This document shows positions 4,366 to 19,528 of a stretch of DNA of 21,046 nucleotides, piece by piece. Origin of the DNA: a virus; the IMG/VR virus record IMGVR_UViG_3300038701_003462, positions 1 through 21,046 of that record. One strand, given 5' to 3'. The first letter of the stretch is position 1. Each line of letters begins with the position of its first letter. Under the pieces are notes generated by a model. It saw nothing but the letters and a program-made list of their open reading frames with translations. It made no database searches and was not told the DNA's origin. The position numbers and the translations under genes were made by a program.

Positions 4366-4662
4366 ATGACCGACGATCCCGAGCGCGACCACGCCGGGCC
4401 TCTCGACCTCCACCCGCACGAGATCACGCCCGAGACCCGGGCCTACCTCGCCGCGTGCGTGGACAACGACCCGGCCCGGGAGGCGGCGTGCGCCGACGTC
4501 GTCTTCGGGGGTATCGCCGCGCGCCGGGCCGCCCGCGACCGCGGCGTGCCCGGCTCCACCCTCCGCGACGACCTCCGACGCTTCCGGGCCCGATTCGCCG
4601 CCTATATCAAGCGCGAGACCGACGCCGGCGGGTCGCTCCACCGCTTCGTGAGGCCCGCGTGA
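4366..4662 (+). CDS. Small helix-turn-helix protein upstream of terminase
   Basis: This 98-residue protein starts at ATG 4366 with GAGGG at 4356-4360 as a possible ribosome site. Residues about 47-72 ('AARRAARDRGVPGSTLRDDL') look like a helix-turn-helix: an Ala/Arg helix, a Gly turn, and a Ser/Thr-led recognition helix. The region before it is acidic. It overlaps the terminase small subunit start by 4 bases, so it may assist packaging-site recognition or regulate late genes. The functional choice is open. Confidence 0.65.
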   Translation: MTDDPERDHAGPLDLHPHEITPETRAYLAACVDNDPAREAACADVVFGGIAARRAARDRGVPGSTLRDDLRRFRARFAAYIKRETDAGGSLHRFVRPA

Positions 4663-5513
4663 CCGACGCGGCCCTCACCCTCGAAGACCCCACCGAGGGG
4701 CTCGTCACCCCCGCCGAGTTCGGCGCCCGCGTCGCCGCCGTCATCGGCCGCGAGCCCTACTCCCGCCCCGCCGTGCACAAGTGGCGCCAGCGGGGCGAGG
4801 TCGCGCCCCGCTACGTCGATCCCGACCGGGGCACCGCCTGGTACGACCCCGCCGACGCCGAACGCGTCGCCAAGAACCGCCCCGCCCACGGACGCGGCGG
4901 CGCCCGGCCCGGCTCGGGCCGGCCCCGCCGCACCGCCACCGGGCGGCCCGACGCCCCCGACCCGCTCGCCGACGAGGACTCGCTGGCCGCCCGCGCCGCC
5001 GTCGCCGAGCTGCGCTCCGAGCTCGCCGACCGAACCGAGCCGCCCGCCGGGGCGATCGAGCCGCGCGACGTCGCGCTGCTCACCCGCGACGAGCTGGCCG
5101 CCCTCGCCCGCTTCCCCGACGAGTCGGGCCCGATGACGGGCGCCGCCCTCGCCCGCTACGCCAAGCTCGAGGAGATCCGCAAGAAGGCGATCGCCAACGA
5201 ACGCGACGCGGGCAACCTCGTGGACAAACGCACCGCGGCCCGGGCGTGGGTCAAGACCGTCAGCGCCCTGCGGGCCGGGCTCGAGGGCCTGCCGATGGCC
5301 GTCGCCGCCCGCGTCGGGCCGATCGCCGCCCCCAACGACGCCGAGCTCGCCCAGGCCGGCGACCTGCTGCTCGCCACCGGCGCCGACCCCGACGCCGTGA
5401 ACCGGGCCCTCGCCCTCGTCGAACGACCCGCCGACTGCGAAGACGCCGTGCGGACCATCGTCGCCGCCGAGGTCCGCCGGCTGCTGGATGAGTTGGGGGG
5501 GAGTGAGGCGTGA
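4659..5513 (+). CDS. Terminase small subunit (DNA packaging)
   Basis: The GTG at 4659 overlaps the upstream TGA and gives 284 residues. Residues about 15-70 resemble a winged helix-turn-helix DNA-binding domain of the Nu1 type. A basic 'GGARPGSGRPRR' stretch follows at about 80-91, of the kind common in terminase small subunits. The C-terminal half has a long helix, 'KLEEIRKKAIANERDAGNLV', followed by a helical region ending near residue 220, the usual pattern for this family. It would recognise the packaging site and recruit the large subunit. The last codons (GSEA) and the stop lie within the first heptads of a repeat array, so the C-terminus may have been shaped by the repeat. Placement just before gpA-type terminase supports the call. 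Confidence 0.8.
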   Translation: MTDAALTLEDPTEGLVTPAEFGARVAAVIGREPYSRPAVHKWRQRGEVAPRYVDPDRGTAWYDPADAERVAKNRPAHGRGGARPGSGRPRRTATGRPDAPDPLADEDSLAARAAVAELRSELADRTEPPAGAIEPRDVALLTRDELAALARFPDESGPMTGAALARYAKLEEIRKKAIANERDAGNLVDKRTAARAWVKTVSALRAGLEGLPMAVAARVGPIAAPNDAELAQAGDLLLATGADPDAVNRALALVERPADCEDAVRTIVAAEVRRLLDELGGSEA

Positions 5514-5601
5514 GGCCTGAGGCCTGAGGCTTGAGGGATGAGCCGTGAGCAGTGAGCAGTGAGCAGTGAGGCCTGAGGCCTGAGTGCTCACGGATGACGC
5601 C
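5504..5601 (+). repeat. Heptad array 1 (small terminase to 59-aa gene)
   Basis: Fourteen consecutive 7-base words in one phase, the first overlapping the last two sense codons of the terminase small subunit. The second word supplies that gene's TGA stop at 5511-5513. Words include TGAGGCC (four times), TGAGGCT, TGAGCCG, TGAGCAG (three times) and TGAGTGC, then TCACGGA and a degenerate last word. Mostly TGAG orientation. The next gene follows after a 36-base stretch with a GAGAAAGG ribosome site. Confidence 0.95.
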
Positions 5602-5637: not shown

Positions 5638-5817
5638 ATGGGTGAGCACGCGAAGAAACCCCCTTGCGAGCCCACGCCCCCGGGTGATCTGGTGGTGCGG
5701 CTGACGCTCGACGACGGCGAGTACCGGGAACGGCTGCGCGAAGACCTCGCGATGCTTGACGAGCTCATCGCGAAGATGGAACGCGTCAACGAACTCAAGG
5801 AGCAAGGAAAGGCCTGA
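5638..5817 (+). CDS. Small coiled-coil protein, 59 aa
   Basis: ATG 5638 is chosen because GAGAAAGG lies at 5619-5626 and because the earlier in-frame GTG at 5584 falls inside the repeat array. The product is small. After a Pro-rich start, residues about 20-55 form an amphipathic helix with a Leu/Ile/Met heptad pattern ('LREDLAMLDELIAKMERVNEL'), likely a coiled coil. It sits between the small and large terminase subunits and may be a packaging accessory, but no family is recognised. Its TGA stop is the first word of the following array. Confidence 0.65.
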   Translation: MGEHAKKPPCEPTPPGDLVVRLTLDDGEYRERLREDLAMLDELIAKMERVNELKEQGKA

Positions 5818-5919
5818 GGCCTGAGCAATGAGCAGTGAGGCGTGAGGCCTGAGTGCTGAGTGCTCACGGCTGAGTGCTCACCCCGCAAGCCTCACCCCTC
5901 AAGCCTCAAGCCTCCCCCC
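5815..5919 (+). repeat. Heptad array 2, exactly 15 heptads from stop to start
   Basis: The region from the upstream TGA to the base before the terminase ATG is 105 bases, exactly fifteen 7-base words without any phase change. The first seven are TGAG words. Then TCACGGC, TGAGTGC and TCACCCC alternate, one degenerate word follows, and the rest are TCA-type words ending in TCCCCCC. No Shine-Dalgarno sequence precedes the terminase start. Confidence 0.95.
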
Positions 5920-8061
5920 ATGACCTCCATCGCGGGCATCACCGACGCGGGGGCGTTTGTTCGTGAGACGGTCCGCGCGGCGCTGGCCGTGCGCGAAACG
6001 CCGCCGCCGGACGTCTGGCTCGACCGCCACCGCGGCGCGGGCGGGGCCTTCCGCTGGTCGATCCGGACCACCCCCTACCTCCGCGGCGTGCTGCGGGCCC
6101 TGGCCGACCCGCGCGTCCGCGAGGTCGTCGTGCTCAAGTCCGCCGGCGTCGGGTTCACCGAGGCGATCGTCGGGTACCACCTCTACGCGGCCGTCGAGCT
6201 GGGCCTCAGCTCGATCATGTTCGCCCCGACCAAGGACAAGGTCGGCAAGCTCGTCAAGAACAAGGTCACCCCCGCGATCCTCGCCACGCCCGCCGCCCTC
6301 GCGGCCCTGCGCGGCAACGTCAAGGACATCCAGGCCTCGGCCGTCACCTTCAAGGGCGCCGAGATCGGCTTCGCCTGGACGCAGTCGGCCGCGGGCAAGA
6401 AGTCCGAGCACGTGCCGCTCGTCTCGAGCGACGAGCACGACGAGGCCCCCGAGGGCACCCGCGACCAGCAGCAGTCGCGCACGCAGACCTACGAGCACCG
6501 GACCAACCTCTACGGCGGCACGCCCAACAACGCCGGCGACGAGACCGACGAGCTCTTCGGGCTCTCCGACCAACGCCGCTACTGCGTGCCCTGCCCGATC
6601 ACCGGGCGGTACTTCGAGCTCTGGGACTTCCCGCTCGTCCGCTGGGAGGGCGGGCTGCGGGCCGACCCCGACGGGGTCGAGTCGAAGGCCTGGGTGCAGA
6701 GCCCGTTCACCCCCGAGGGGTACACGCATGACGACCCCCGCGCCCGCGCCTACCGGATCCACAACCACGACAAGGCCTGGATGCTCGCCAACGGCGTCTG
6801 GGTCCGCGCCGGTGAAACGGTTGAGTCCGACGGGTCCATCCTCGAAACCCGACTTCAGCGAGCCCCGGCCGATAACGCCCGAGCAGACCGCGGCGCTTCG
6901 AGCCTCTCTGAGCTCGACCCCGCCCTGCTGCGCGTGCGGACGCCCGGCGGGCGGCGACGCCTGCCCGACCCCGAGCCCACCGACGCCGAGCGCCGCCTGA
7001 TCGAACGCTCGGGCGTGCGGATCGTCGGCGAGCCCGAGCGGCCCGACGCGCGGCTCGTCGGCTTCCGGCTCAACGCGCTCGCCTCGCCGTTCAACACCTT
7101 CGGGTACGTCGCGCGGGGCTTCGTCGAGGCGAAGGGCTCGCCCAGCCCGCACTGGTACCGCGAGCGGCTCGCCCAGCCCTGGCAGCCCGCCAGCGACAAG
7201 CTCGGGCTGGCCTACCTCCGCAAGCGCTGCGTGAGCGTCGCCGAGGGCGGCTACACCCGCGGCACCGCGCCCGACCCGGTCCGCTTCGTCGTCGCCGCCG
7301 TTGACACGCAGAAGGACCACGTCTGGGCCAGCTGGTGGGGCTTCTCCGCCGACGGGCTCGACTGCTGGTACCTGGACCACGAACGCATCGAGGCCCCCGA
7401 CGGCAACGACCTCGCCGAGATCGAGACCCGGGTGCCCGGCGCGACCTTCGCGCGGCGCGGCGGGGCCGAACGCCTGGGCGTGAGCGTGACGGCGGTGGAC
7501 TACGGGCACCGGTCCGAGGAGGTCGAGCGGTTCGTCGGTCGGCTGCTCGCGAATCGCCGCCTGGCCGTCTCGGTCAAGGGCGACATCAGCGCCGACCGCT
7601 ACCGCGAAGCGCGCGAGGGGATGACGAAAAACGGGGGGCTGCTGCTGCAGCTGCCCGTCAACCGGATCAAGGACCAGCTCGCGGGCATGATCGCCGGCCC
7701 GGCCGTCTGGAACCCCTCGGCCGAGGGGCAGCGCGGCAGCAACTTCTACCTCCCCGCCGACGCCCCCGACGAGCTGCTCGAGCACCTCTCGAGCGAGGAA
7801 CGCGCCCGGCCCAACGCCTCGACCCGCCCGTCCGCCCGCGCCTCGCAGCGCTTCGCCGTCTGGACGCCCCGCCGCGGGCGCTCGGACAACCACCTCTGGG
7901 ACGACCTGGTCTACGCCGTGGGCGTGCTCGACTGGGTGGGCGTGGACGCGCTGGTCGGCGCCGCGGCCCAGCCCGCCGCCCATCCCGCCGCCGACTCCGC
8001 CCCGCGGCCCGCCGCGCGGCCCGCCCCGCTCGTGCGCCGGCTGCGGCGCTTCGAGGACTGA
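5920..8061 (+). CDS. Terminase large subunit, lambda gpA type
   Basis: This 713-residue packaging motor starts at ATG 5920, right after the repeat array; earlier in-frame starts would translate the repeat. A gpA-type Walker A-like loop, 'KSAGVGFTE', lies at 73-81, with the lysine at its start as in lambda gpA rather than in a GKT/S box. A Walker B-like acidic pair is D171-E172 in 'LVSSDEHDE'. The gpA signature 'SDQRRYCVPCP' is at about 216-226 and 'VGFRLNALASPF' at 380-391. The nuclease domain has candidate acidic residues D462 ('VVAAVDTQKD'), D527 ('VTAVDYGH') and D661/D662 ('NHLWDDLVYA'). The enzyme pumps DNA into the prohead and cuts concatemers. Residues about 300-350 differ in codon use from the rest. 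The Ala/Pro-rich tail after residue 680 is probably flexible. Confidence 0.92.
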   Translation: MTSIAGITDAGAFVRETVRAALAVRETPPPDVWLDRHRGAGGAFRWSIRTTPYLRGVLRALADPRVREVVVLKSAGVGFTEAIVGYHLYAAVELGLSSIMFAPTKDKVGKLVKNKVTPAILATPAALAALRGNVKDIQASAVTFKGAEIGFAWTQSAAGKKSEHVPLVSSDEHDEAPEGTRDQQQSRTQTYEHRTNLYGGTPNNAGDETDELFGLSDQRRYCVPCPITGRYFELWDFPLVRWEGGLRADPDGVESKAWVQSPFTPEGYTHDDPRARAYRIHNHDKAWMLANGVWVRAGETVESDGSILETRLQRAPADNARADRGASSLSELDPALLRVRTPGGRRRLPDPEPTDAERRLIERSGVRIVGEPERPDARLVGFRLNALASPFNTFGYVARGFVEAKGSPSPHWYRERLAQPWQPASDKLGLAYLRKRCVSVAEGGYTRGTAPDPVRFVVAAVDTQKDHVWASWWGFSADGLDCWYLDHERIEAPDGNDLAEIETRVPGATFARRGGAERLGVSVTAVDYGHRSEEVERFVGRLLANRRLAVSVKGDISADRYREAREGMTKNGGLLLQLPVNRIKDQLAGMIAGPAVWNPSAEGQRGSNFYLPADAPDELLEHLSSEERARPNASTRPSARASQRFAVWTPRRGRSDNHLWDDLVYAVGVLDWVGVDALVGAAAQPAAHPAADSAPRPAARPAPLVRRLRRFED

Positions 8062-8150
8062 CCCCTCTCCCCGGCCCGCTCCCCGGCGGGGAGCGGGAGG
8101 CATCTCAAGACCCCTCACCCCGGCCCTCTCCCCGGCGGGGAGAGGGAGGC
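8062..8150 (+). repeat. Two copies of a hairpin repeat filling the terminase-connector junction
   Basis: Two units offset by 49 bases each contain a perfect 10-bp stem with a GGC loop, at 8075-8097 and 8124-8146. The fourth base pair is G-C in the first copy and T-A in the second, a compensatory difference that preserves the stem. No U-tract follows, so these are not classical intrinsic terminators. They resemble the widespread CCCTCTCCCC-type REP-like palindromes of GC-rich bacteria, by memory rather than by search. Confidence 0.9.
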
Positions 8151-8156
8151 AAGCCG

Positions 8157-11466: not shown

Positions 11467-11743
11467 GAGTCCTGAGGCCTGAGGCTTGAGGCTTGAGGGG
11501 GCGGCACTCAGCCGTGAGCACTCAGCACTCAGGACTCAAGCCTCCCCCTCAGGACTCACCCCTCAGGACTCAGGACTCGGCAGTGAGCAGTGAGCAGTGA
11601 GCAGTGAGGCTTGAGGCCTGAGTGCTCACGGCTGAGTGCTCACGGCTGATTGCTCACGGCTGATTGCTCACCCCTCAGGACTCAGGTCTCAGGACTCAGG
11701 TCTCCCCCCCAGGACTCAGGTCTCAGGACTCAGGTCTCCCCCC
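11466..11743 (+). repeat. Heptad array 3, the longest (about 40 heptads)
   Basis: About 278 bases of 7-base words begin at the last base of the protease stop. Order: TGAG words, a mixed TCA block, a second TGAG block with TGAGCAG three times, four alternations of TGA(G/T)TGC with TCAC words (11619-11674), then alternating TCAGGAC and TCAGGTC. Bases 11675-11709 are followed by a near-perfect tandem copy (11710-11743, one T lost). Phase slips of one base occur near 11548 and 11710. It fills most of the 370-base gap before the decoration gene. Confidence 0.95.
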
Positions 11744-11751
11744 ACCCCCAA

Positions 11752-11791: not shown

Positions 11792-11823
11792 CATCCCCCG
11801 TCGCCGAAGGGCGGCGACTCAGA

Positions 11824-11836
11824 CAAGGACCACGCC
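11824..11836 (+). promoter_or_regulatory. Ribosome-binding leader CAAGGACCACGCC of decoration gene
   Basis: AAGGA lies 7 bases before ATG 11837. The AGGACCAC block is shared with four other structural genes in the window, and it fixes the start. Confidence 0.75.
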
Positions 11837-12289: not shown

Positions 12290-12299
12290 GGGCGAGGCC

Positions 12300-12452
12300 T
12301 GAGTTCTGAGTCCTGAGGCCTGAGTGCTCACGCCTGACTGCTCACCGCTCACTGCTCACTGCTCACTGCTGACTGCCCACTGCTCACCGCTCACCACTCA
12401 CCGCTCACGCCCTCCCCTCAAGTCTCACCCCTCAGGCCTCAGGCCTTTCCCC
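12300..12452 (+). repeat. Heptad array 4 (decoration to capsid gene)
   Basis: About 22 words: four TGAG words, TCACGCC, then chiefly TCACTGC and TCACCGC with interspersed TGACTGC, ending in TCAAGTC, TCACCCC and TCAGGCC twice. There is one 6-base slip at 12412-12417. An isolated TGAGTCC at 12208-12214 next to the decoration stop suggests that the hairpin cluster inserted into, or replaced part of, a once continuous array. Confidence 0.93.
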
Positions 12453-12501: not shown

Positions 12502-12514
12502 TTCGTGCGCCCAC

Positions 12515-12525
12515 GAGGACCACCG
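12515..12525 (+). promoter_or_regulatory. Ribosome-binding leader GAGGACCACCG of capsid gene
   Basis: GAGGA lies 6 bases before ATG 12526, with the shared AGGACCACC block. It fixes the start over the earlier in-frame start at 12505, which lies inside the leader. Confidence 0.75.
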
Positions 12526-13488: not shown

Positions 13489-13682
13489 TCCACCCGATCG
13501 ATCCGACGCCGGAGCGCGCCTGCCCCGCCCGCGGGGCGATGGCGGCGCTGGACGACGCCCGGCGGGCGTGGGGTCGGTCGTTCGCCCTGACCGCCTGGCA
13601 CAACGAGAACCTCCGCGCCGTGCGCGACGCGGTCGGCACGCTCTGGGCCCTGATCGACCGCGGGGCCCTGCGCACCGAGTAA
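13485..13682 (+). CDS. Hypothetical small protein, 65 aa
   Basis: The GTG start at 13485 overlaps the capsid TGA (GTGA), so translation is probably coupled to capsid synthesis. The product is helical after residue 18, with several aromatic and Arg residues ('RRAWGRSFALTAWHNENLRAV'). It has no membrane segment and no recognised motif. A short capsid-associated or chaperone role is conceivable because of the coupling. It ends in TAA 15 bases before the next gene. Confidence 0.6.
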   Translation: MIHPIDPTPERACPARGAMAALDDARRAWGRSFALTAWHNENLRAVRDAVGTLWALIDRGALRTE

Positions 13683-13687
13683 CCACG

Positions 13688-13697
13688 AAGGACCACC
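13688..13697 (+). promoter_or_regulatory. Ribosome-binding leader AAGGACCACC
   Basis: AAGGA lies 5 bases before ATG 13698, with the same AGGACCACC block as the capsid and tail genes. It starts right after the upstream TAA. Confidence 0.7.
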
Positions 13698-16238: not shown

Positions 16239-16319
16239 GGGGGAGGCTTGAGTCCTGAGGCTTGAGGCTTGAGAGACTCAGGACTCAGGCCTCAGGACTC
16301 AAGACTCAGGCCTCAAGCC
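16236..16319 (+). repeat. Heptad array 5
   Basis: Twelve words start with the TGA stop of the upstream gene. The first part has TGAG words (TGAGGGG, TGAGTCC, TGAGGCT twice), with one 6-base and one 8-base word. The second part is entirely TCA words (TCAGGAC, TCAGGCC, TCAAGAC, TCAAGCC). It is thus split cleanly by orientation at 16278. Confidence 0.93.
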
Positions 16320-17185: not shown

Positions 17186-17201
17186 GCCGCCCGCCGGCGG
17201 C
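17186..17201 (+). other. 6-bp GC hairpin after tail terminator gene
   Basis: GCCGCC pairs with GGCGGC around a CGCC loop, three bases past the stop codon. It sits between a first heptad at the stop and the main array, as does the hairpin cluster after the decoration gene. No U-tract is present. Confidence 0.6.
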
Positions 17202-17202
17202 C

Positions 17203-17308
17203 TGAGGCCGGAGGGATGAGGCTTGAGACCTGAGTCCTGAGTGCCTCAAGCCTCGCCCCTCGCCCCTCAAGCCTCACCCCTCAGGCCTCACCCCTCAAGC
17301 CTCACCCA
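17203..17308 (+). repeat. Heptad array 6 (before tail tube gene)
   Basis: Fifteen words: TGAGGCC, a degenerate GGAGGGA, TGAGGCT, TGAGACC, TGAGTCC and an 8-base TGAGTGCC. Then only T(C)A/TCG words follow (TCAAGCC three times, TCACCCC twice, TCGCCCC twice, TCAGGCC, TCACCCA). The orientation switches once, at 17246. Confidence 0.93.
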
Positions 17309-17312
17309 TCGC

Positions 17313-17324
17313 GAGGACCACCGC
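17313..17324 (+). promoter_or_regulatory. Ribosome-binding leader GAGGACCACCGC of tail tube gene
   Basis: GAGGA lies 7 bases before ATG 17325 and carries the shared AGGACCACC block. It fixes the start against the earlier in-frame start at 17241 that would translate the repeat array. Confidence 0.75.
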
Positions 17325-17837: not shown

Positions 17838-17853
17838 ATCGAGGGGTGGGGCT

Positions 17854-17954
17854 TGAGCAGTGAGCAGTCAGCAGTCAGGCCTCATCCCTCACTGCTGATC
17901 ACTCACTGCTGACTGCTCAGTGCTGACTGCTCGCCCCTCAAGCCTCCTCCCCCC
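17854..17954 (+). repeat. Heptad array 7 (tail tube to tail chaperone)
   Basis: About 14 words: TGAGCAG twice, then TCAGCAG, TCAGGCC and TCATCCC, and alternation of TCACTGC with TGACTGC or TGATCAC, then TCGCCCC and TCAAGCC, ending in a C-run. It starts 16 bases after the stop, so the stop codon here is not part of a clean word. The AAGGACCACC leader follows directly. Confidence 0.9.
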
Positions 17955-17968
17955 AAGGACCACCGACC
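17955..17968 (+). promoter_or_regulatory. Ribosome-binding leader AAGGACCACCGACC of tail chaperone
   Basis: AAGGA lies 9 bases before ATG 17969. It is the fifth copy of the AGGACCAC block in the window. Confidence 0.7.
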
Positions 17969-18508
17969 ATGATCGAGAAAGACAGCCTCGTCGCGACCTC
18001 CGAGATCCCCGTCGTGCTGCCCGACGGCAAGCCGGGGTCCATGCGCGCGCTCACGCCGGCCGACCGCTCGGGGCTGCAGCGCGCCCACCCCGGGCCGGTG
18101 CCGCCGCTGGCGCCCGACCCCGAGCGGCTGGGCGGGGCGCGGGTGCCCAACGAGCTCGACGCCGGGTACCGCGCCGCGCGGTCGGCCTGGAACGGCGAGC
18201 AGCGGCTGCTGCAGGTGATGGCCTGCCTCGGGTACCGCACCGCCTCGGGCAAGGAGTGGTCGCGCGACCACCTGCACCAGGGCACCGACGACCAGCGCCG
18301 CCGCGCCGACGACGGCCGCACCGCCTGGGCCCGCGACACCATCGCCGACCTGGCCGAGGACATCAGCGACGAGTGGGTCTACACGGCCTCCGAGGCGCTG
18401 TTCGGGTCCGACGGCTTCTCCGCGGCGCTGGCGGCGTCGGGAAAGGGCGGCTCTGGCACCCCCGCCGGGCCGAAACCGCCGAAAGACGCATCGAGCGGCG
18501 CGGGCTGA
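17969..18508 (+). CDS. Tail assembly chaperone, short form (gpG-like)
   Basis: The unshifted product has 179 residues from ATG 17969. It lies between tail tube and tape measure, the fixed place of lambda gpG. The central part is helical and Arg/Asp-rich ('LDAGYRAARSAWNGEQRLLQVMACLGY', 'TIADLAEDISDEWVYTASEAL'). The last 25 residues are Gly/Pro/Ser-rich and follow a G GGA AAG slippery site. Such chaperones coat the tape measure during tail assembly and are absent from the virion. No sequence signature was seen; the call rests on position, size and the frameshift. Confidence 0.75.
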   Translation: MIEKDSLVATSEIPVVLPDGKPGSMRALTPADRSGLQRAHPGPVPPLAPDPERLGGARVPNELDAGYRAARSAWNGEQRLLQVMACLGYRTASGKEWSRDHLHQGTDDQRRRADDGRTAWARDTIADLAEDISDEWVYTASEALFGSDGFSAALAASGKGGSGTPAGPKPPKDASSGAG

Positions 18509-18696
18509 GCCACGCGCTCACCCCGCCCGACGCGTACGACGTGACGCTGCGGTACGTGCAGCTGCGCGTCGCCGAGGCCTTCCCCGCCGCCGGCCCGCCC
18601 GAGGCGATGGACCCCGCGGCGCTCGCCGAGCTGTACGCCTACTGCCGGATGCGCGACGCCGAGCGGGCGCGCGAGCTCGCGGCGGCGATGGTGTGA
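17969..18696 (+). CDS. Tail assembly chaperone, -1 frameshift product (gpGT-like)
   Basis: If ribosomes slip back one base at 18439-18445, translation resumes at 18445 and runs to the TGA at 18694-18696. This gives 159 shared residues plus 83 new ones, 242 in all. The extension is a credible coding sequence: 'AYDVTLRYVQLRVAEAFPAAGPPEAMDPAALAELYAYCRMRDAE...' has helical character and high third-position GC. It has no start codon of its own near a ribosome site. In lambda the GT extension recruits tail tube protein while the G part binds the tape measure. Confidence 0.8.
18439..18445 (+). other. Programmed -1 frameshift slippery site GGGAAAG
   Basis: The heptamer is in the required phase, G GGA AAG, relative to the ATG 17969 frame, and is identical to the lambda G-T slippery sequence. 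The zero-frame stop is 61 bases downstream and the -1 frame stays open for 83 codons. A 5-bp stem (GGCGG with CCGCC) can form immediately downstream but its spacing is unusual. Confidence 0.85.
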
Positions 18697-18799
18697 GGGG
18701 TGAGGCCTGAGGCCTGAGGCTTGAGTGCCTCACGGCTCACGGCTCACTGCTCACGGCTCCCCCCCTCAAGCCTCACCCCTCAAGCCTCAGGACTCGCCC
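18694..18799 (+). repeat. Heptad array 8, from GT stop to next ATG
   Basis: Fifteen words and short variants run from the TGA at 18694 to the base before ATG 18800. TGAGGGG, TGAGGCC twice, TGAGGCT and an 8-base TGAGTGCC come first. TCACGGC three times, TCACTGC, TCAAGCC twice, TCACCCC, TCAGGAC and a shortened last word follow. Orientation changes once, at 18730. No ribosome site precedes the next start. Confidence 0.94.
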
Positions 18800-19528
18800 A
18801 TGCCCACGATCCAGGTCAGCACGGAGGGGATGCGGCGGGCGGTCGAGGTGGCGGTGCGGGCGCGGGAGACGGCGGCGGCCGACGCGGGCTCGGCCCTGGC
18901 CGGGGCGTTCGTCGAGGCGCACACCGACGTCTCGCCCAAGGACACCAACCGGTACGCCAACGGGTTCATCGACGCGGGCCGCAAGGCGGGCGTGACCGAC
19001 CGGCCCCTGCTGCCCTACCAGCGCAGCGCGCGGCACGAGGCGTACGTCGAGAAGCTCGAAAAACAGCTCGAGGGGTACGTGAAGGTCCGCGACACGTGGC
19101 AGACCTGGCAGAACCACTACATCAGCTCCCACCGCACGGGGGAGCCGTACTACCGCAAGATCGTCCGCCGGCTCAAGAAGGCGGAGAAGAACGTCACGCG
19201 GGCGATCCGCGAGCTGGGCCGCGCGTACGGGTCCGAGTCGATCATCTTCTTCGACCGCGAGGCGTACGCGAACCGGCGGCAGAGCCGCTCGCTCTCGACC
19301 GTCCGCGCCGAGCCCGTGGGCGGGCGCGGCGAGGTGGTCACCGGGCCGCACGGCGCGGTGACGATCCTGACGAACATGGAGCCGCACGCGGTGCTCGTGA
19401 ACCGGAACCCGAACCTCGGGCACCCCGTGACCGCCGCGATCCAGGCGACGCGGGTGCTCGGGCTGCAGCGGGTGAGCAAGAAGTACGTCGAGGGGCTCAA
19501 GCCCTCGACGCTCGTGAGGGCCGCCTGA
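18800..19528 (+). CDS. Tail completion-like protein with coiled-coil insert, 242 aa
   Basis: ATG 18800 abuts the repeat array; earlier starts would translate it. The N-terminal half has a helix and 'SPKDTNRYANGFIDAG' (45-60), similar to the 'P.DTG..rns...' box of HK97 gp10-like proteins. The C-terminal 'NMEPHAVLVNRNPNLGHPVTAAI' resembles that family's 'n..pYa..vE.G' strand. Between them is a long charged helical region, about 77-140 ('KLEKQLEGYVKVRDTWQTWQ'), absent in the short family members. The match is weak, and a different minor tail protein is possible. Its position between chaperone and tape measure is unusual for gp10, which normally lies before the tube gene. Confidence 0.6.
   Translation: MPTIQVSTEGMRRAVEVAVRARETAAADAGSALAGAFVEAHTDVSPKDTNRYANGFIDAGRKAGVTDRPLLPYQRSARHEAYVEKLEKQLEGYVKVRDTWQTWQNHYISSHRTGEPYYRKIVRRLKKAEKNVTRAIRELGRAYGSESIIFFDREAYANRRQSRSLSTVRAEPVGGRGEVVTGPHGAVTILTNMEPHAVLVNRNPNLGHPVTAAIQATRVLGLQRVSKKYVEGLKPSTLVRAA

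Follow-up and report, generated by a model that had tools for sequence, protein, structure and literature searches.

Convergent heptad repeats between late genes of a phage, and the exact fit of one array at the terminase junction

Does a repeat that runs unbroken from the stop codon of one gene to the start codon of the next set the distance between them? The question arises at a junction in a 21-kb IMG/VR virus record (the window, 21,046 nt at its full length), whose + strand encodes the head-tail module of a phage. An earlier note had described the region at 5815-5919 as exactly 15 heptads from stop to start with no base out of phase, and the listing of the words confirmed this. From 5815, words 1 to 7 are TGAGGCC, TGAGCAA, TGAGCAG, TGAGGCG, TGAGGCC, TGAGTGC, and TGAGTGC, and words 8 to 15 are TCACGGC, TGAGTGC, TCACCCC, GCAAGCC, TCACCCC, TCAAGCC, TCAAGCC, and TCCCCCC, amounting to 105 nt. 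The upstream gene, encoding 59 aa without a family match (5638-5817, + strand), ends in a TGA at 5815-5817 that, as had been stated, opens word 1, given the rotation chosen. Because the heptad register extends into this gene through GGCC at 5811-5814, the statement that word 1 starts at the stop codon hinges on that rotation. The ATG at 5920 indeed adjoins word 15 and begins the gene of the terminase large subunit (TerL) of the GpA type (713 aa; 5920-8061, + strand), which matched the Pfam families GpA_ATPase (1.9e-28) and GpA_nuclease (1e-30). In several distant homologues, candidate start codons lie close to this position, and others offer none or several. The proposed lack of a Shine-Dalgarno (SD) sequence was also borne out: in a survey of 27 starts, 16 of which had a 4-base SD, TerL had the weakest match, tied with an overlapping gene.

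The repeat at this junction is not uniform. Its TGAG words give way to CTCA words, forming a long inverted repeat, so that the array as a whole (5811-5919, no phase slip) comprises a TGAG arm, the core TGAGTGCTCA twice, a CTCA arm, and a terminal C-run. Words 11 (GCAAGCC) and 15 (TCCCCCC) are off consensus, and the sister arrays are likewise ended or interrupted by C-runs. The sequence TGAGNNNTGAGNNNTGAG occurred 56 times in the window and not once in 100 dinucleotide shuffles; the tandem 7-nt units of the arrays thus exceed chance. The predicted RNA of 5811-5919 had a minimum free energy of −56.2 kcal/mol (z −4.5).

Eight such arrays were found in the phage, all of them between genes and slightly overlapping 3' gene ends. 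According to the gene map made in this analysis, on which the gap sizes rest, they fill every late-operon gap of at least 100 nt, and tight gene overlaps are free of them; the other genes overlap or are at most 15 nt apart, except for one gap of 43 nt and one of 96 nt with other repeats. In the arrays, TGAG words come first and CTCA words last, mostly joined at TGAGTGC(C)TCA. The + strand module includes a probable terminase small subunit gene (terS, 4659-5513; phrog_57, E 1.1e-4), the GpA-type terL, and the genes of the portal, the protease, and the major capsid protein, and a long 3'-terminal gene without a family match looks like a tape measure gene by position only. The array after terS (5504-5590) consists almost entirely of TGAG words, the second of which supplies the terS stop TGA at 5511. 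Between the protease gene and the next gene lies a double array (TGAG-CTCA, TGAG-CTCA; 11469-11745) with two phase slips, within which a 34-nt stretch is tandemly duplicated at 97% (11671-11743); 34 is not a multiple of 7. The array upstream of the major capsid gene (12293-12446) and those at 16242-16318 and 17199-17312 have one phase slip each, and a degenerate array at 17850-17950 has none. The last array (18694-18799) is a near-twin of the terminase junction: the TGA of an upstream frame is its word 1 and an ATG at 18800 adjoins it, with a length of 106 nt and two slips. In total, seven one-base slips were counted in about 138 words across the eight arrays, and gene stops lie within the repeat at 5511, 5815, and 18694.

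These counts allow the exact fit to be judged. At 7 slips in about 138 words, a slip-free run of the length seen at 5815-5919 has a probability of about 0.5. The chance that the ATG falls in phase is 1 in 7, or about 2/7 when both ATG-abutting arrays are considered. Since the stop codon lies inside the repeat, it is in phase by construction; only a slip-free run and an in-phase ATG are then needed, and the 105 nt therefore require no constraint. The exact fit is a modest coincidence, mostly a by-product of the stop codon lying in the repeat. The suggestion of the earlier note that the repeat defines the junction thus holds for one edge, where its TGA is the stop codon.

The note had also suggested that indels at the junction are confined to 7-base steps, as though the repeat set a measured stop-to-start distance for the terminase, and had proposed a comparison of lengths among relatives. 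Searches of IMG/VR with TerL, the portal, and the major capsid protein (MCP) returned no close relative of the phage; one 29% MCP relative was found, without arrays, and the array DNA matched none of the named phages and plasmids. TerL had 22 matches in 392 Planctomycetota genomes, only about 23-33% identical, and no array was present near the TerL matches at the 20 planctomycete loci checked; a planctomycete host, hinted at by the first matches, was not established. The comparison was therefore made at proxy loci. In other viral contigs, pure TGAG arrays with matching flanks at two loci differed by 7, 21, 28, and 35 nt, in line with unit-wise change. One 5.2-kb stretch of the acidobacterial genome G403 was aligned to its family members, and arrays at orthologous junctions in G421 had spans that differed from those in G403 by 1, 5, 3, −14, and −14 nt. 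Unit steps thus occur in pure arrays, but junctions also differ in length by other amounts. The constraint has the exact 105 nt and the pure arrays in its favor; it is contradicted by the 106-nt twin, the seven one-base slips, and the 34-nt duplication in the phage itself, and by the orthologous differences of 1, 5, and 3 nt. A heptad-measured junction is not needed, and we consider such a constraint highly improbable.

At the same G403 junctions, other species lack an array or have one built from another heptad unit, which indicates that a junction can do without the element. Among related acidobacterial MAGs (L252-L263; L229 in G403), the units at orthologous junctions include TGAGTAC, TGAGTCC, GGATTGA, GGGGTCG, GGATGAA, CGATGAA, GTCGGTT, GAGTGAC, and others, or there is none; all of these arrays are head-to-head, and nearly all have period 7 with a G-rich left arm. 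Elsewhere, in G081, the start codon of a minus-strand gene directly adjoins a convergent array (L205), and the congeneric locus L206 in G396, at 68% identity, is without an array. A second heptamer array, ATTCCGG, directly abuts the TGAGTCT arrays at L209 and L210 of G081.

Taken together, the terminase junction is best explained as one of eight convergent heptad arrays that have spread or grown in the gaps between late genes, its exact fit being incidental; we assign this reading a probability of about 0.6. On this reading, only the spaces between genes would tolerate arrays. A TGA lies in every TGAG word, and since 7 is not divisible by 3, a run of three such words puts a stop in each forward frame; an array that reaches the 3' end of a gene accordingly supplies its stop codon in word 1, 2, or 3. 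In G403, an unrelated acidobacterial MAG, 9 of the 17 genes upstream of arrays ended in word 1 (three genes), word 2 (five), or word 3 (one), as counted with crude ORF calling and with the phage window left out. At 5811-5919 the array would have extended to the next ATG, displacing any SD sequence, and a selected role for it in terminase expression is improbable. Translation of TerL probably begins independently of an SD sequence, at an unpaired AUG that directly follows the hairpin; speculatively, the hairpin may draw the stop and start codons together and so aid initiation. Slippage alone does not account for identical units at many loci. The junction is thus ordinary once the repeat is understood, and heptad arrays of a published, unexplained kind fill the late-operon gaps of this phage.

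The polarity of the arrays was recorded in several sets of loci. In viral loci plus the window, TGAG followed by CTCA within 60 nt outnumbered the reverse order by 17:1, and among the 392 Planctomycetota genomes the TGAG-CTCA order occurred in 6 and the reverse in 0. In 14 genomes, a set biased by its retrieval with a pattern containing the convergent core, the matches were 471 to 4 with overlapping matches counted. The only reverse-order array (CTCA then TGAG) in these genomes is at 68900-68960 of contig C25 in G400. A unit-blind detector found 19 inverted arrays in synteny-fetched regions; the period was 7 in 18 of them, and the left arm had more G than C in 18 and more C than G in 0. In two sets of other loci, which had been picked by TGAG patterns, the period was 7 in 40/45 and 14/16, and G exceeded C in the left arm in ratios of 41:3 and 15:0. 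Units without stop codons (GGGGTCG and GTCGGTT) share the polarity, and stop codon supply by TGAG was accordingly rejected as its full cause. A layout rule of period 7, with the G-rich arm first and the unit varying by species, makes repeat dispersal testable, and we regard the generality of this polarity as the by-product of greatest interest. In the searched literature, which covered few subscription papers, no general account of the rule was found. It is conceivable, though we hold it only tentatively, that period-7, G-first, head-to-head arrays form one general class of element at gene junctions in bacteria and their viruses, in which layout and sites persist while the unit is replaced between species, which would imply active, sequence-flexible dispersal. 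The arrays would then not be relics of slippage but would owe their spread to, say, a mobile element or the addition of heptads at the ends of breaks, and the phage junction would be a limit case, its array supplying a stop codon and reaching the start codon that follows.

Other explanations of the arrays were weighed against the same evidence. They might be functional mRNA hairpins, acting as RNase barriers or in processing or attenuation, and selected to set head and tail gene expression relative to each other. Four arrays were folded, and all were more stable than their dinucleotide shuffles (z −2.6 to −5.6, the latter at 17199-17312), so that an RNA role is possible; the presence of an array at every large gap points the same way. 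However, when the word order was permuted within the arms, folding was equally good in every array except one sub-array (0.04). Tuning of the word order for the hairpin was thus rejected; pairing stems from the two arms, with no sign of selection on word order. None of six candidate intrinsic terminators (a G+C-rich hairpin plus a T run) lay inside an array, no Rfam model matched the arrays at the gathering score, and orthologous junctions elsewhere often have no array at all. Selected hairpins are therefore rather unlikely.

Another possibility is that the convergent blocks are small mobile elements whose terminal inverted repeats are built of heptads and which a transposase or RAYT-like enzyme moves in trans. 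Such an element would account for the fixed polarity on either strand (17:1, 6 versus 0 genomes, and 471 versus 4) and for the hundreds of matches found in G403 and G397. The arrays resemble REP and BIME palindromes (PMC3733652) in being intergenic, palindromic, multicopy, and of fixed polarity, but differ in their tandem 7-nt units, variable length, and lack of a tag: the array as read at 5811-5919 contains neither GTAG nor CGTC, one of which marks the foot of the 20-40 bp palindrome in REPs. In addition, arm length and unit vary within a genome and the loops are unrelated, and we judge this origin improbable. Break-repair scars, in which G-rich heptads were added to both 3' ends and the ends were then joined head-to-head, would produce the orientation observed, and the stop-free units GGGGTCG and GTCGGTT keep the polarity, which is hence not set by stop codons. 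On the other side, comparison of the loops with ancestral spacers neither showed a match nor excluded one (permutation p 0.14 and 0.73), so that the loops being leftover ancestral spacer is not supported; of the explanations weighed, we give scars the least credence.

The phage arrays belong to a known group, the intergenic, convergent, G-first heptamer repeats, which are widespread and poorly understood; the two-arm convergent orientation with the G-rich arm first was found on either strand, and numerous bacteria and viral contigs share this layout. The closest parallel is the GGGAATC and GGGGA(C/T)T heptamers of Xanthomonas and Nostoc, which are intergenic, present in many copies, and often arranged as two close convergent arrays (70 and 75 cases), with the G-rich strand being the coding one downstream of ORFs and the non-coding one upstream (PMC4692102). 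The phage arrays share the seven-base unit, intergenic location, copy number, and convergent pairing; they differ in that the unit is TGAGnnn, is degenerate, and lies in a phage late operon. The TGAG arm of 5815-5919 contains no GGG run, and hence none of the four GGG tracts of a GGGAATC-type G-quadruplex. According to PMC4679880, TAACTGA heptamers of Beggiatoaceae, Cyanobacteria, and Bacteroidetes are nearly all direct repeats, with one indirect set, and lie just upstream of starts with SD sequences rare; their TGA limits gene-end overlap, and 7-nt indels occur between Cyanothece strains. The likeness lies in a TGA-containing heptamer that overlaps gene ends and adjoins start codons where SD sequences are rare or absent, and the difference in the unit, which is not among the words of 5815-5919, and in the two convergent arms; no phage case appears in the part of that study covered here. 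Mrazek et al. 2007, as cited in PMC4679880 and PMC4692102, described an excess of 7-nt units among long simple sequence repeats in bacteria. As cited, these repeats are likewise intergenic, with slippage proposed for them, and the description includes neither degenerate words nor a convergent two-arm layout, both seen here. The words of the phage arrays vary around TGAGnnn, and a further group of 7-nt intergenic repeats is the STRR heptamers of cyanobacteria.

Three further observations were made in the window. Downstream of terL, the gap before the following gene (8063-8155) contains CCCTCACCCCGGCCCTCTCCCCGGCGGGGAGAGGG, which closely resembles the TM/PIT motif in reverse complement; the study describing that motif did not find it in phages (PMC4666352). 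At 18439-18445 there is a slippery heptamer, G GGA AAG, at which a −1 shift would extend the frame of 17969-18508 as far as the TGA (18694) that opens word 1 of the final array. This heptamer is the known signal of lambda gpG-GT. Finally, a near-identical leader with an SD-like core, (A/G)AGGACCACC or AAGGACCACG, is common to five start codons (11817-11836, 12506-12525, 13678-13697, 17305-17324, and 17949-17968).
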